IMG/VR virus record: IMGVR_UViG_3300021185_001695
Span: 1-22,083 of that record
DNA length: 22,083 nt
From: a virus
Reading direction: 5' to 3' (one strand)
Made by a program: the position numbers and the translations under genes. Below are positions 2,860 to 22,083 of this stretch, in pieces; the first letter of the stretch is position 1, and each line of letters starts with the position of its first letter. The notes beneath the pieces are model-generated. The model was not told the origin of the DNA. It searched no databases and saw nothing but the letters and a program-made list of their open reading frames with translations.

Positions 2860-5800
2860 TCGCAGTAGTATGTGTCAATTACAATTCCTTTGCTTTTTTG
2901 TAGTGTTAAAAAGCCTCTGACTCTTTTATCTGAGTTTAATAATACAATCACATGGTAGTCATATTGTCTCCAATTTGTTATTGCTGCAGCATTGCTGGCA
3001 AAATTGTTTTGGCTGTTTTGAAATGTTGTTGTCACATCTTGACCCAGAACCTTTGTTGTTCTGATTTGATCTCCTAGCCCTGGATTGATGTCAATTCCAT
3101 CATGTGCAATTTCAAAATCTTCTATTTGATTTACTGCATAGTTTTCATCACATCTGCTGCTGAAACTATGTGCTGAAAGTGGCAGATAGAAAGATGTGTA
3201 TACAAAAGCTTTTGTCAATGGCTCTACAAGGTTGCAATCATAGACAGCAACAACTTCAGCAGATGAAAATTTGACAACTATATACTTGATCACTTTATAA
3301 TAGGCTTTTGAATCTTTTATGAAGTTGTCAAGGTTGTCACCTACAGCCAGAGCAAAATAGTCTGTGCTTCCATATATAGAGATGAAAGAATCTGTGCCTC
3401 CTCCATAATTTGGGACACCTCCTGGAGCTTTCCTAGAGATTAAATCACCCACTACAGGATAGAGACCAGAAGATCCATTGTGAAAATAGTTTGCATTTGA
3501 AACAGCATATTCACCACAAAAAGCACTGTGATAGACTGTGTAAGTGTTCGCCTCTATTTGTGCCTTTGTAGGGATTGAACTATATCCAGCAGAACCAATT
3601 CCAGCATGGATTCCAAAACCTGGAATTCTTGCAGTTGATGAGCTTGTTCCTGGAGCAGGGTTTGTGCTTATTGTGTGAATCCCTGTTATTGTGTTTTTAT
3701 CTGTATCATAGTCTGGACTGACATTTGTCTTTGCATAAAACCTAGCATGCTTTGTTGCTGGATGTGTCAATCCTGTGACTTTTGCCTCTTTGATTCTAGG
3801 TGAGGCAGTCATGTCTAGAGGAGATCCAGCTCCTAGAAAGACATTGTCTTTGTTGACCATAATGAGCTGAACTCCTGCTGCTGTTTTTAAGGTATCAATA
3901 TCATTAGTTGCTGAGAGTGTAGAAATTGAATCAGCAATTAAAAAACCATATTCATCGACATTTTCTTGCTCACATAGTTTCCCTCCTTCAGTGATCTCAA
4001 ATTTGAATGTTGCTTCTGTGTTAGATCCAAAAGATGTAATATAGGACAATGTAGGAGCTGTCACCTCACAGGGAGTCACATTGATAGAGCTAGGCACATT
4101 TTGAAGGATCGGTGCTGGTGTGCTATCAATCAGAGCTGGCTGTGTGAATCCATTGTTTTGACCTCCAGAGTTGTCTATTGTGAATTGACTATTGTCAACA
4201 GTGATGTCAATATTTGAGATATCTATTGGAACTCCAAAGATTGTAATTGGTGAGGTAAGCGTATCAACAACAGATGCAAACTTTGTAGATCTTAAAATGT
4301 TGACCAGCTCCAGCTCACTCTTTCCTGTATCAAAGTTTGTAGTGATGCTGTTTATTCTGTAAATCTTGTCAAAGATTCTGAGGTCATCATTTAGACTCAG
4401 CTCCTCAGTGATGCTCATAGGCAGCTCTGCAGTGAGTTTTGTGATTCTTTTTCTCTCATCAAATAAGTCTTTGATATAGCTCTCATAGTAAGTTTTAAAA
4501 AGTGTTTTTTCATTGCTCACTAGGGCATACTCATCAACTTCAGCATGGAAATTGATTGATTGTGACATGCCTTCCTCTACATAATCAGAGAAAACAGAAA
4601 CAGAATTTGATGGCATATAGGGTGAGTTGATCATGACCTTTGTGCCTCCTAGATTCCTCACACTTATAGAACTGATTGTCTGAATAGGATAGAACAGCAG
4701 AGGCATCTCTGCGCTCTTTTGCTCTTTTTCATCAACATGCCAACCCCATTGGACCTTTGTCAGATCTCCTGTGTTTAGATCATTAAGCCTTTCAAAGAGC
4801 ATGTGTTCAAAAGGCAGCTTGACCTCATAGGTCTCACCCTCAAACTTATCTTTTTTGCCATTAGTTAAAAAGTAGCTGTCCTCATTGTAGTTTGTTTGTC
4901 CCCAGGGTCTGTTGTTTATGCTGTTAAAATTAGAAGCCAGGAATGTTTTTGTCCCTTCATATCCTAGATTGACTTGTCTGTAGGGAATAGGTGAATCAAC
5001 CTGGCTCTTTGTAGAGTCAACATAGGGAGTGATGTCCCAGAGTTTTGTGGAGCTGGCATAGTAATCATCAAGAGTCTGGACCACAATGACATCATCATCA
5101 TTGATGTAGGCAATGAGATTGAACATTTTAAATAGTCCCTGGAGCAGATCAATGACTTTCATCTCTGGAAGGTTAATAGGTACACTAAAATGTGCATCTG
5201 TAATTGTTGTCATTGATGCAACAAGTTTGCAGTCTCTTTTGCCTCCTAGCAAAGCATTGTTTTGTCTTTGCACAAAGACCTCCAGGTCAAATGTAGTTGC
5301 AGCAGAGGTCTCTATGAAAACAGAAAACTGACCATTGTCAACTTCTATGAAATCATTTGTTTGACTCACAGCTGTTCCATTTTTTGTGTCACCTTTTAGG
5401 CTGTCAAATCTTCTGAACTCCTCTCCATTTTTATGGATCACTAGATTGTAGGTTGCTGTGTCATCTCCAGGATCAACTGTGAATTCCAGATTGTATTGGA
5501 TGTTCTTTTTTGTGTTGTTTATTGCAAAATTGTTGTGTCTGATTACTAGCTCATCTTGAGCTGTTCCAACAAGACCAAAACTTTTGAACTGTTTTGATTT
5601 TTGTTGATCCTCAAACAGACCTCCACTCTTTGTATGCAGCCAGAGATATAGATTATTGTAGGGGAGATTTGTGTTAGTAAAGAAATCATCTGAGAATTCC
5701 AGGTCATAGTGCAGCTCTATTGCTTTTATTATTGCATCTATTTTGATTGCTGGCTTTAGCTGTGAAAACAAAACTCCATTGTTGTCTATTCCTGCAGATG

Positions 5801-6362: not shown

Positions 6363-7349
6363 TTATCTGATGTTGTTTATTTTGTCAAAAGCAAATTCAA
6401 ACTCAAGAGTGTAGTTGATCATCTTGTCATTTAGATGTGTTTTGTGAGTCATGCTTTTTGTGAGTGGTAAAATTGGAAGAGTCTTTCCTTGATGTCTGAT
6501 GTAAATGTTCTCACTTAAAAGCAGCTCCTCAATTGTTGAGTTCATGTTTTCTTTAATAAAGCCTGTATTGACTGTCAGCTTTTTTGTTGCATTCACATTT
6601 GTGATCTGCTTTTGTGCTGCTGAAGTGCTATAGTTTAAACTTGATCTACTTACTGTGTTTGCTTTGTAGCTCTCAGAGACCACATCAAAGCTTTCTATTG
6701 ACTTCTTAAACACATGAAGGTCCTGGAATGCTCCATATTGATTAACAAAGCTCAATTTGTAGCTTGTAAACTTTGGCTCACAGATGTTTGTCACTGTGAT
6801 TGTTTTCAGAAGTGTAGTGTCATCAGTGTCATAGACTTTTATCTGACTAGAGTCAGCAGGAATTGTCACATACTGAATCTTTTGATTACTGTTTCCAGAA
6901 TCTGTGATCTGTGTGTCTGTGCTGTCAATCCTTACTTTGCCAACTCCCTCTGAAAAGATTGGAAGCTTTCCTGGTGTCCCCTCTGGGAGATAGATGTTGT
7001 CAGAAGTGATCAGTGCGTTCCTGGAAAGCTCTGGATTGATTTCATCCTCAAAATAGCCATATCCATCAACTGCTAGATAGTTGAAGATTCCTGGATTGCT
7101 ATGATCTAGTAAATCTCCCTGGAGGTCTTTGTAGTAAACAACAGCAGAAACCCATTTTGCATGACATTGATAGTCATCATTGAATGTGATTTCAAGGTGA
7201 TCTCTGACAAGCTCTCCTATCTCCAGGACAATGTTGTTTTCAGTTCCTAGTCTTTCTTTGTTGATTGTGTACTTCAAGTCTGCTGCTGAATATGAGCCAA
7301 CAGTTCCAGAGTAGATGTAGAGTTGCAATTGAATTGATCCTAATGCCAT
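6363..7349 (-). CDS. Phage structural protein, probable tail component
   Basis: 328 residues, start MALGSIQLQLYIYSG, beta-rich with no signal peptide or membrane helix. The segment FVNQYGAFQDLHVFKKS around residues 205-221 is a motif I associate with a conserved structural protein of Bacteroidota phages. The first half contains ELVRDHLEI and an acidic loop. Its stop abuts the ATG of the 1168-residue tail protein, and the gap from the preceding gene is only 11 bases with an A/T-rich leader (AAAAATATAAAAA before ATG) in place of a Shine-Dalgarno. It is probably a tail-tip or distal-tail component, but a minor tail or adaptor role is equally possible. Confidence 0.5.
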   Translation of the reverse strand: MALGSIQLQLYIYSGTVGSYSAADLKYTINKERLGTENNIVLEIGELVRDHLEITFNDDYQCHAKWVSAVVYYKDLQGDLLDHSNPGIFNYLAVDGYGYFEDEINPELSRNALITSDNIYLPEGTPGKLPIFSEGVGKVRIDSTDTQITDSGNSNQKIQYVTIPADSSQIKVYDTDDTTLLKTITVTNICEPKFTSYKLSFVNQYGAFQDLHVFKKSIESFDVVSESYKANTVSRSSLNYSTSAAQKQITNVNATKKLTVNTGFIKENMNSTIEELLLSENIYIRHQGKTLPILPLTKSMTHKTHLNDKMINYTLEFEFAFDKINNIR

Positions 7350-18743: not shown

Positions 18744-19025
18744 TTATTTGTTTAAGTATTCATCAGCAGCCTGTTGAGTGACAAGCCTTCTTTTTCCTCT
18801 GTGTACTACCTTGAGCCTTCCTCTTTCAATATCATTCTCAATTGTCTTTCTAGAGAGTCCTGCAATTTCTGTGACCTCTTTTATGTTGAGAAAGTTTGTA
18901 GGCTTTACCTCTGGACCATGTGCAATGATCTGATTGAGTCTGGTGATCTCAGTAATACATCCATCAAGCTTTGCCTCTAATGCTTCAAGCTGTATCTGGT
19001 TTTCTATTTCCTGTTGCTTATTCAT
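18744..19025 (-). CDS. Excisionase/MerR-type HTH DNA-binding protein
   Basis: 93 residues. An N-terminal coiled coil (QQEIENQIQLEALEAKL ... ITRLNQII) is followed by FLNIKEVTEIAGLSRKTIENDIERGRLKVVHRGKRRLV, a winged HTH of the HTH_17/excisionase type: helix EVTEIAGL, recognition helix SRKTIENDIERG and a basic wing. A final helix follows (TQQAADEYLNK). Such proteins act as recombination directionality factors or as early regulators. It lies second in the early operon, near the integrase and att site, fitting an Xis role; a pure transcription regulator is the alternative. Confidence 0.75.
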   Translation of the reverse strand: MNKQQEIENQIQLEALEAKLDGCITEITRLNQIIAHGPEVKPTNFLNIKEVTEIAGLSRKTIENDIERGRLKVVHRGKRRLVTQQAADEYLNK

Positions 19026-19489: not shown

Positions 19490-20365
19490 ATGGAGAAAAA
19501 ATCACCTCAAGCAGAAAGATTGCAGAGATTTGTTGATCTTACAGGCTATTCAATCAATGAATTTGCGAAACAGTGTGGAATCCCTAGCACTAGAACTTTG
19601 ACAAGGATTCTCACAGATGGAGGCAGACCCAGCTCAAAGATTTTAGACAAAATAATCACCAGGTTTCCACAGCTCAATCATGATTGGGTTGTTCTAGGTT
19701 ATGGAGAAATGATTGTCAAGGGATTTGACAACAAGCCTGTTTCAGCAGACAGCCTTCAGAAATCAACCCAGGCTAGTTTTGGAACAATACAGCAGAGCAT
19801 GTCTGATCATGACTTTTCACTCAATGAGCTTGCAAAGGCAGTTGAAAAGGCAATCACTAGAGTTGACACTATGTCTCAGTTTCTAATCCAGGCAGCAGAG
19901 TCATCAGTAGAAAAACAGGCACTGATTGAAAAGCTTTTTTTTGAAAAAGTTGACAATAAGATTCTAGAGGTTGATAAACATGTTGCCCAGCTTTTTCATG
20001 TATTAAGAGAGAGAGATCAAGAGGCTAGAGAATCGGAGGACAAAAGAATTGATAGACTTGACCAACAAAGAAGAGAGCAAAGGCAAAAAGACATGAAAAT
20101 TTTGTTTGATCAATTTGACAGACTTTCAACAAAAACAAAAGAACATCTGGACCTAAATGCAGAAAGACAAAAAACACTCATCCAGGAAAAGATAGATGAA
20201 GGGATCAGAAGAGGCATTGATCAGATGAACATAGAAATGAAGAAAAATGCAGTTGAACAAACAGACTTTGCTATTAAGTCATTGATGGAAAAGTTTAGAT
20301 TGTCTAATTTGTTGCCAGGATTAGGATCACCAAAAAAAACATCTAATCCCAAGCTGAAAGAATAG
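19490..20365 (+). CDS. Phage repressor-like protein: HTH plus long coiled coil
   Basis: 291 residues, the only plus-strand gene in the window. Residues about 17-60 (TGYSINEFAKQCGIPSTRTLTRILTDGGRPSSKILDKIITRFP) form an XRE-type helix-turn-helix, followed by LNHDWVVLGYGEMIV, the usual continuation in flavobacterial phage CI-like proteins. The remainder (about 100-265) is a charged coiled coil (QALIEKLFFEKVDNKILEVDKH..., RIDRLDQQRREQRQKDMK...). No LexA/S24 peptidase domain is present, so self-cleavage is not expected. Likely lysogeny repressor of the divergent early operon. Its stop overlaps the integrase gene end by 23 bases, in convergent orientation. Confidence 0.75.
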   Translation: MEKKSPQAERLQRFVDLTGYSINEFAKQCGIPSTRTLTRILTDGGRPSSKILDKIITRFPQLNHDWVVLGYGEMIVKGFDNKPVSADSLQKSTQASFGTIQQSMSDHDFSLNELAKAVEKAITRVDTMSQFLIQAAESSVEKQALIEKLFFEKVDNKILEVDKHVAQLFHVLRERDQEARESEDKRIDRLDQQRREQRQKDMKILFDQFDRLSTKTKEHLDLNAERQKTLIQEKIDEGIRRGIDQMNIEMKKNAVEQTDFAIKSLMEKFRLSNLLPGLGSPKKTSNPKLKE

Positions 20366-21530
20366 CCTCAGACAGCCTGGCTTTGTCAACTCTGATGTAG
20401 TTTTCAAGCGTTTTAAGAGACTTAATTCCTGTGACCTTCATGATCAATGAGTGACTCACTCCTTTTTGCTCTGAGAGTGTAATGAATGTCCTCCTGGCTG
20501 TGTGACTTGCAATCAGTTTGAACCTAGGGATCTCTTCTGTGTCTTTCCTGTTTCCATAAAATCTGTCCCTGGTGACTACTTCTGTGAATCCTGCAAGCTC
20601 ACATATCTGATGAATGTGATCATTGAACTTTTGTCCAGAGATTGTCTTGAGTTTCCAATCATATTTATCTAGCAAAGCTCTCAGTTTCCTAGTCAATGGA
20701 ATGTAGGAAAACTGTCCTGTCTTTTTTGCTCTGATTTCAATGTTGTTGCCCACAATGAACTTCCTGTCAAAACGCTTGTAATCTGAAAACCTTTGTCCAG
20801 AGTAGCAACCTATCAGAAAAAGATCTCTGTAGTAATCTTTGACAGGATCTAGATCTAGGGTCTCCAGGATCTCTAGATCAGAAAGAGAAAGTGAGATGTG
20901 TGATGTTTCCCTTTTTTTAATTTTAACATCTTTAAAAGCTGAGTTGACAGCATATCCATTTTTGACGCACCAATTTAAAAAAGACTTTAAAAAACCAAGC
21001 TTTCTTCTCAGTGTATTGTCAGAGATGTTTTTCTCCTTCCTAAAGTATGCAATCAGATCATTGAAAAAAGCACTGTCAAAATCAGACAAATAGAAAACTT
21101 TCTTTTTCTTTTTCTGGATCTGCAAGATGGCTGTGTGTAACCTGGTATATTTTTGCCAGGAATCCTTTTTCACAGATTCGCTGTCTTTCTTTTGCTGGAT
21201 GTAGATCTGGAAGTAGTCAGAATAGTTGAGCCTTTTAGTGACTTGAGCAAGCTGAAAATGCTCATCAAGTTTTTTTCTTACAACGTCTCTAGTTAAACTC
21301 TCTTTATAATACCTTTTTAGATCATCAAAGACTTTCTGGTATTCATTCAGCTCATGTGTGATTTTTCTGTTTGCTTCTCCTATCTCACCTCTCCTGGCTT
21401 TTGGTCTTTGTGTTTTTAGATCCCACTCTGATCTGTCAATTTTTATCTTTGTTGAATACCTACACTTTTTTCCATAGAGATAAAAAATAAAAAAAATGTA
21501 GTTTTGAGGTCCATGTAGTAAAAAACTCAT
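20343..21530 (-). CDS. int: Tyrosine site-specific integrase
   Basis: 395 residues from ATG 21530; a TTG 27 bases upstream lies in a 12-bp repeat and is a poor start. N-terminal arm-binding-like part (KIDRSEWDLKTQRPKARRG), a SAM-like core-binding domain (NYSDYFQIYI ... LRRKLGFLKSFLNWCVKNGYAVNSAF) and catalytic domain. In TTG-based numbering the catalytic residues are Arg256 (SGQRFSD), Lys279, His352 and Arg355 (SHTARRTFI) and Tyr387 (ENYIR). The usual second His (GHKS) is replaced by TGIKS. Mediates integration at the tRNA-derived att core directly upstream. It may be autoregulated, as two arm-type repeats cover its immediate 5' side. Confidence 0.93.
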   Translation of the reverse strand: MSFLLHGPQNYIFFIFYLYGKKCRYSTKIKIDRSEWDLKTQRPKARRGEIGEANRKITHELNEYQKVFDDLKRYYKESLTRDVVRKKLDEHFQLAQVTKRLNYSDYFQIYIQQKKDSESVKKDSWQKYTRLHTAILQIQKKKKKVFYLSDFDSAFFNDLIAYFRKEKNISDNTLRRKLGFLKSFLNWCVKNGYAVNSAFKDVKIKKRETSHISLSLSDLEILETLDLDPVKDYYRDLFLIGCYSGQRFSDYKRFDRKFIVGNNIEIRAKKTGQFSYIPLTRKLRALLDKYDWKLKTISGQKFNDHIHQICELAGFTEVVTRDRFYGNRKDTEEIPRFKLIASHTARRTFITLSEQKGVSHSLIMKVTGIKSLKTLENYIRVDKARLSEAILSAWD

Positions 21531-21554
21531 TTGGTGTCCGTTTTGGTGTCCGTT
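21531..21554 (+). repeat. Tandem pair of 12-bp repeats, left arm of att
   Basis: Two exact adjacent copies of TTGGTGTCCGTT. A second, similar pair occurs on the other side of the att core in the same orientation. They are likely arm-type sites for the integrase N-terminal domain and directly precede the integrase start codon. Confidence 0.75.
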
Positions 21555-21568
21555 CAAAACTACAAAAT

Positions 21569-21642
21569 CCTGGTAAATAGTGTCAAATAATACCAGGAAA
21601 AAACAAAAATGCTATGTTTTACTAGGTTTTAGCACTATTTAC
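21569..21642. repeat. Inverted repeats beside the att core
   Basis: CCTGGTA (21569-21575) pairs with TACCAGG (21591-21597), and GTAAATAGTG (21573-21582) recurs inverted as CACTATTTAC (21633-21642), ten of ten bases. The left copies overlap. They are candidate sites for excisionase or another bending protein. Confidence 0.5.
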
Positions 21643-21648
21643 TAAGTA

Positions 21649-21671
21649 GGTTCGAGTCCCTCTTTCTCCGC
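21649..21671 (+). other. Attachment-site core derived from a tRNA-Ser 3' end
   Basis: GGTTCGAGTCCCTCTTTCTCCGC-type segment (T-loop plus 3' acceptor strand of a tRNA whose acceptor 3' strand is TTTCTCC followed by discriminator G; tRNA-Ser of Bacteroidota ends this way). The 5' side of the T stem (GTAGG) pairs poorly with CCCTC, so only the 3' tRNA portion is present and no functional tRNA gene is formed. It lies between the two pairs of arm repeats. Identity of the tRNA is inferred. Confidence 0.75.
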
Positions 21672-21683
21672 TTAATACCTTGT

Positions 21684-21715
21684 AAACCCCTGCAAATAGT
21701 AGGGGTTTCTTTTTT
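21684..21715 (+). terminator. Rho-independent terminator after the tRNA-like core
   Basis: Stem AAACCCCT (21684-21691) with AGGGGTTT (21701-21708), 9-base loop, then CTTTTTTT on the plus strand. It has the orientation of the tRNA fragment, as expected for a tRNA terminator carried along with the att sequence, or restored to the host tRNA after integration. Confidence 0.8.
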
Positions 21716-21738
21716 TGGTGTCCGTTTTAGTGTCCCTT
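21715..21738 (+). repeat. Tandem pair of 12-bp repeats, right arm of att
   Basis: First copy TTGGTGTCCGTT is identical to both left-arm copies; the second, TTAGTGTCCCTT, has two differences. Their presence right of the core, about 43 bp away, points to an attP-type arm-core-arm structure. Confidence 0.75.
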
Positions 21739-21761: not shown

Positions 21762-22083
21762 CTAGAGCTTCATCATGCAGTTGATGGCAGTTTCTCCTTC
21801 CAGAATCACACCACATCCAATGGCTTGCTTTTTGAAGTTTTTTGCATAGGCTGCAGCATAGGCTGTTGCATCTAAACCACACCCCACTTGCATGCCAAAG
21901 ACTCTGAAGTTTCTGCCTACTAGCCACTCAGTATAGGCTTGAGTGTGAATGTGTCCCTGGACTGTACTCATCATGTCATTTTTTGCTTTTGTGCGAGCTG
22001 TGCCTCCTTCACCATGAGTAAATTGTACACCATCATAAACAACTCTTTCAACCCAATTCCAATTAGTTCCCAGGACATCATTG
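21762..22083 (-). CDS. Phage-type metallophosphoesterase, C-terminal part
   Basis: 106 residues visible, N-terminus beyond the right edge. It contains FTHGEGG, then VQGHIHTQA (the GHxH metal-binding signature of calcineurin-like phosphoesterases) and FGMQVGCGLDATAYAAAYAK followed by AIGCGVILEGE, a C-terminal pattern I know from phage-encoded metallophosphatases. Such enzymes are thought to act on DNA or nucleotides during infection. Its stop (TAG, 21762-21764) lies 24 bases from the right arm repeats, so phage genes flank att on both sides. The first GNHD-type motif is not visible. Confidence 0.75.
   Translation of the reverse strand, partial: NDVLGTNWNWVERVVYDGVQFTHGEGGTARTKAKNDMMSTVQGHIHTQAYTEWLVGRNFRVFGMQVGCGLDATAYAAAYAKNFKKQAIGCGVILEGETAINCMMKL

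Follow-up and report, generated by a model that had tools for sequence, protein, structure and literature searches.

The window, by which the whole analysed stretch of 22,083 bases is meant, is one whole virus record. Its right end, where a tRNA-Ser-like core lies between two pairs of 12-bp repeats, raises the question of whether this DNA is the attP site of a phage or a junction between prophages in a chromosome, and of which protein reads the repeats. A large terminase subunit, an XkdF-like protease, a repressor-like protein and an excisionase-like protein are encoded in the window, and for this reason it looks like a temperate tailed phage. No complete tRNA was found in the window. On the plus strand, the right end runs from the integrase gene through the left pair, 94 bp of DNA, the core, a hairpin and the right pair to the end of a metallophosphoesterase gene. 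The features are as follows:

18744..19025, minus strand: excisionase-like HTH_17 protein, a candidate directionality factor
20343..21530, minus strand: 395-aa tyrosine integrase that starts with the ATG at 21530; its variable part, residues 1-25, probably reads the arms
21531..21554, plus strand: left arm pair, next to int: TTGGTGTCCGTT twice without mismatch (21531-21542 and 21543-21554)
21555..21562, minus strand: putative -7 element of the int promoter, TAGTTTTG, immediately upstream of the left arm pair
21649..21671, plus strand: core GGTTCGAGTCCCTCTTTCTCCGC, 3' end of tRNA-Ser(UGA), differing from hosts at one base; the identity block is probably 21657-21671
21684..21716, plus strand: hairpin resembling a terminator, with stems at 21684-21692 and 21700-21708 and a run of T up to 21716
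21715..21738, plus strand: right arm pair, exact TTGGTGTCCGTT at 21715-21726 and TTAGTGTCCCTT, with 2 mismatches, at 21727-21738
21762..22082, minus strand: phage metallophosphoesterase, 3' part, cut by the window edge

The attachment site and its host target

The tandem 12-bp repeats that the original prediction placed on both sides of the core are present, as three exact copies and one with 2 mismatches. With up to 2 mismatches allowed, TTGGTGTCCGTT has 6 matches in the window against 1.41 expected, a number reached by 0 of 100 shuffles; the core occurs once. The left pair abuts the integrase start as had been claimed, the A of the ATG pairing with position 21530 and the repeats beginning at 21531. 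The mechanical start of the open reading frame, a TTG at 21557, is an unlikely start for the integrase because the repeats would then be translated. The predicted phage-type metallophosphoesterase is also found beyond the right pair, where its 3' end is at 21762 and the right edge of the window cuts it off; its full-length relative in the viral locus L004 matches PF00149 and phrog_221. The terminator-like hairpin, sought by the same rule, is present in 19 of 20 relatives, and likely ends the transcript of the rebuilt tRNA. A perfect 11-bp inverted repeat (TGTAGTTTTGA/TCAAAACTACA, window positions 21497-21507 and 21554-21564) spans the left arm pair, with its inner half overlapping the putative promoter box and its outer half within int codons; this outer half is missing from L004-L007.

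A host tRNA-Ser gene ending in the core had been suggested as a check, and such genes were found. The core is present with at most one mismatch in 243 of 397 genomes from the family of a Bacteroidetes single-cell genome, with 0 matches to the reversed-pattern control among those listed, and 29 of the 30 core loci scanned are tRNA-Ser(TGA), the other one being tRNA-Ser(GCT). Phage core and host tRNA-Ser are equal at 22 of 23 bases. The tRNA-Ser identity of the 23-bp core thus holds. Its full length as the exchanged stretch had to be given up for about 15 bp (TCCCTCTTTCTCCGC), since identity starts at or after TCCC in seven of the nine integrated relatives with a readable core. Identity from TCCC onward places the exchange 3' of the T loop, which would explain the one-base difference between phage and host cores before TCCC (host GAATCCC, phage GAGTCCC).

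The search with the integrase gave seven viral loci at first, and further scans added more. The order int, repeats, core, hairpin, repeats and phosphoesterase recurs in many viral contigs, and in the 20 loci readable on both sides the second repeat pair lies 180-230 bp from the int-proximal pair, before the phosphoesterase. Past the phosphoesterase of L004 there are an M15 endolysin and an S74 tail chaperone, and host genes are absent there, so that phage DNA lies on both sides of the site.

A TAnnTTTG box is found at -40 to -24 in 17 of 22 loci, against 0.46 expected from base shuffles. This motif is the -7 element of Bacteroidetes promoters, and a G at -10, the atypical base of the window's own box, is nearly absent in F. 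johnsoniae (both from an excerpt of PMC6847099). By the numbering in that excerpt, transcription would start within the repeats, so that Int, when bound to them, would be expected to shut off the promoter of its own gene. Integrase autorepression has been shown for KplE1 and put forward as general, according to an excerpt of PMC2951348. Because the left pair occupies the space between promoter box and ATG, Int probably represses int in the window too; as judged from position, such repression through the left pair is only plausible, and on account of the atypical G at -10 the autoregulation is a step that we infer.

Arm words and the integrase N-terminus

The integrase matches PF17293 and PF13102 above the cut-off and PF00589 at 26.3 bits, just below the cut-off of 27.1, and is similar to phrog_1 (integrase) with an E value of 2.2e-28. 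Its N-terminal region is Arm-DNA-bind_5 by Pfam. Residues R247, K270, H343, R346 and Y378 are invariant across 27 sequences, and we take them, by their motifs, to be the catalytic Arg, Lys, His, Arg and Tyr, the second His/Trp being outside the assigned set. The AlphaFold model (mean pLDDT 86.9) has strands at residues 2-6, 11-18 and 21-30, followed by a long helix, and the variable residues 1-25 are predicted to form a three-stranded DNA-binding sheet. As a whole, the model resembles lambda Int (1z1b, E 4.5e-8) and Tn1549 Int (6en0, E 4.2e-8).

A DNA search of the phage collection gave nothing near the window, and a protein search returned 44 records, every one below 60% identity. Scans with the arm-word pattern brought in relatives together with unrelated contigs. 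Nine loci (L009, L011, L013, L014, L015, L017, L018, L019 and L020) have the word and no relative of the window integrase by HMM at E<=1. In L009, L011, L014 (about 6561-6579) and L019 (about 3938-3956), unrelated tyrosine integrases have the same period-12 pair, TTTGGTGTCCGTTTTGGTGTCC, next to them; the pair in L019 is near a tRNA-Gly and those in the other three are near what we read as the apparent 5' half of a tRNA-Leu. These loci may have converged on a single word, or the code may be a wider one. Locus L041, an integrase relative with an att site on a 4-kb contig binned as Campylobacterales, is probably a mis-binned phage fragment.

Related phages were always found to carry the repeats, in many cases with another word; their absence from related phages with the same integrase would, according to the original prediction, have refuted it. 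The frame is constant, an 8-bp word and a 4-bp spacer with a period of 12, and the sequence of the word varies. Ten words were recorded among relatives, mostly on short contigs with several near-duplicates:

GGTGTCCG: the window, L002, L003, L008, L016, L041
AGAGACAC: L004-L007, L108, L109
GTGTAAGG: L033, L035
GGACACAC: L034
GGGTACGG: L037 and the relic L042
GCGTGTGG: L021
ACTTACGG: L112 and the second relic in G001
TGAGGTGC: L115
TGAGGTCG: L161
GTAGAATA: L132

The left word recurs on the right in 19 of 20 two-sided loci, with 17-20 of 20 positions in agreement; among 4000 shuffled controls the highest value was 16. This count omits L042 and L002, where the right side is absent, and includes L132, which is outside the Mantel test described below; L114 was dropped for its broken integrase frame (one TGA, one TAA) and L038 because it duplicates L037 across the part that was read. 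The exception is L021 (660-1060, on the contig of L039), with GCGTGTGG on the left and AGAGACAC on the right. This mismatch could stem from an exchange that recently affected one side only, from a defective phage or from chimeric assembly.

The 8+4 period-12 pattern is a property of a subfamily. A period-12 pair is among the top repeats at 15 of 16 genome integrases, with L051 reaching 8 of 9 positions. The period-12 rule was rejected for Arm-DNA-bind_5 integrases at large, where 36 places gave 30 loci and 28 scored loci, nine of which comply.

The word follows the N-terminus of the integrase. In a partial Mantel test that controls for the remainder of the protein, the word correlates with residues 1-25 at r 0.85 among 20 phage-type loci, 0.77 among 14 non-redundant loci and 0.62 among 35 loci with genome integrases included; in each case 0 of 5000 permutations reached the value. 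The correlation with the rest of the integrase, when the N-terminus is fixed, is -0.01, 0.07 and -0.05 in the same three sets. The genome integrases numbered 21, of which 16 were read (without L052, L056, L058, L060 and L066) and 15 entered the Mantel test (L062 also being out). Mean pairwise column identity is 0.35 for residues 4-24, 0.73 for residues 25-60 and 0.65 for residues 61-395.

Single pairs of loci display the same relationship. The window and L004 have 361 of 371 identical residues after residue 24 and 12 of 24 before it; the corresponding values are 363 of 371 and 11 of 24 for L002 and L005, and 342 of 371 and 8 of 24 for L035 and L108. The words differ within each of these three exchanged pairs, the rest of the integrase being 92-98% identical and the core almost unchanged. 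At the DNA level, a 25-bp right arm tract is replaced between L008 and L005 and between L035 and L108, with flanks that are identical or nearly so, and the right arm of the window and L004 resembles this pattern; L035 and L108 have an additional insertion difference beyond the arm. The converse is also found, as a common word occurs despite 63-70% identity after residue 24 (window and L016, 234 of 371; L033 and L035, 258 of 371; L004 and L108, 254 of 371). The covariation strongly supports the identification of the repeats as arm-type sites, and we read the arm word and the N-terminal codons as a cognate address that would be changed as a unit.

Integrated copies in bacterial chromosomes

Arm sites would predict, for an integrated element, one pair beside int and the other past the target gene after its restoration. 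For chromosomal copies, which are relatives of the window phage in 11 genomes, the word was taken from beside int and then searched for. All 11 genomes have a second arm pair carrying this word, the reversed pattern giving 0 matches. It adjoins tmRNA in five genomes, tRNA-Ser(GGA) in two and tRNA-Ser(TGA) in two; no gene was called beside it in the other two of the 11, one of these being on a cut locus. The second pair is on the contig and strand of the int-side pair in eight of the 11, at a distance of 15 to 136 kb, and on a different contig in two (G140 and G347); there are several in G121. In nine of 12 pairs, the int side and the distal side have in common 13-23 bp that end at or just past the 3' end of the target, and for the other three (G258 and two of G121) the arm itself was returned and no core was obtained. 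The distal arm begins 36-43 bp past the shared stretch or target 3' end, the value in the window being 43 bp. The word family AGGTGCTA is used with all three kinds of target, which makes word and target separate choices.

Relics of such elements are present in the single-cell genome G001. One of them (L042) consists of an integrase N-terminus, an arm pair and a core running into other DNA, and a complete tRNA-Ser(GGA) lies about 14.5 kb from it. Between the two, the right arm of a second relic (L044, G001:C10, ~35.0 kb) has the hairpin and the ACTTACG word. This arm is ~770 bp past the tRNA-Ser(GGA), its element is gone and its word is unlike that of the integrase relic 14 kb away. In G121 (G121:C1:870129-870343, loci L202 and L217), two arm pairs lie 195 bp apart, an attP-like spacing within a chromosome that suggests tandem or nested elements.

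These last two loci are what might be expected if the contig crossed from one tandem or nested prophage into another within a chromosome and were not free phage DNA. None of the viral loci L002-L008 contains a tRNA, however, and the repetition of one gene order across many viral contigs also argues against such a junction, which is very unlikely. The original proposal that the window crosses attP, and not attL or attR, agrees with the phage genes beyond the phosphoesterase in L004 and with the separation of the arm pairs in chromosomes.

As for the repeats, the site might be an ordinary attP, the arm sites having drifted along with the whole integrase and no unit having been exchanged. Close relatives often have one word in common, and without correction, similarity between words goes with similarity in the rest of the integrase as well (r 0.43); this correlation falls to the -0.01 given above (n=20) once the N-terminus is taken into account, and the exchanged pairs have unlike words with sharp DNA edges, so that simple drift is improbable. 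It is very unlikely that a repressor or excisionase uses the repeats as its operators and that they are not arm sites of Int. Their location in the int leader and the excisionase-like and repressor-like genes nearby would suit operators, but the repeats flank the att site on either side and are found again at the far end of integrated elements, and they track Int residues 1-25. With high probability, then, the window is the attP of a temperate Bacteroidetes phage whose arm word changes as a unit with the Int N-terminus.

A possible self-recognition address

IntDOT has arm-type sites, and in its subgroup arm repeats lie beside the core as they do here. The lambda arm layout differs from that of the window; lambda Int and Tn1549 Int are alike in overall fold to the window integrase and have 14-15% identity to it. 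The IntCTnDOT subgroup (CTnDOT, NBU1) is likewise from Bacteroidetes and has arm-binding, core-binding and catalytic domains, according to an excerpt of PMC8138268, whereas the element described here is a temperate phage with a strict 8+4 frame and with words that are unlike between near relatives. In the intS system of KplE1, the promoter of the integrase gene overlaps att, and integration is likewise into a tRNA gene (excerpt of PMC2951348); in the window such an overlap is putative. KplE1 belongs to another host phylum, and the regulation in the window is judged from position alone. No description of arm-word exchange was found in openly licensed literature.

By combining the above observations, it is possible to propose how the site might work. 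The three-stranded N-terminal sheet of Int would recognise, in every 12-bp repeat to the left and right of the core, the 8-bp word, with the other Int domains acting at the core. Upon integration, the phage would supply the tRNA 3' end and the terminator. The core would be set by the host tRNA and common to different phages; the arm word would be private to the phage type, changing together with the matching N-terminal codons. Int bound to the left pair, between the int promoter box and the ATG, would probably also repress int.

The arrangement might further be a diversifying self-recognition address, in which the core is shared, selection changes word and sheet together, and word and codons move as a split cassette; this is a tentative reading, and we lean slightly away from it. 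In such a cassette, two short tracts ~180 bp apart would be replaced together and the DNA between them conserved. Selection would keep changing the word and its matching sheet because many phages and islands must share a tRNA or tmRNA core. The integrase of one prophage would then not excise, integrate or repress another, and the hypothesis follows that the words insulate co-resident prophages. Pointing towards insulation are L008 and L005, with nearly one core and unlike words; L033 and L034, contigs numbered in one metagenome (3300017743), with unlike words; and the relics of two words at the tRNA-Ser locus of G001. Against it, G121 has one word at several places.

The phages described here provide a natural set of about ten integrase/arm-word pairs on one scaffold, with which the arm-binding specificity code of tyrosine integrases becomes directly testable by domain swaps, and which could yield orthogonal integration tools for Bacteroidetes. 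They also give a simple rule by which both ends of such an element can be located with nothing more than its DNA sequence: the period-12 word next to int appears again 36-43 bp beyond the target tRNA or tmRNA.
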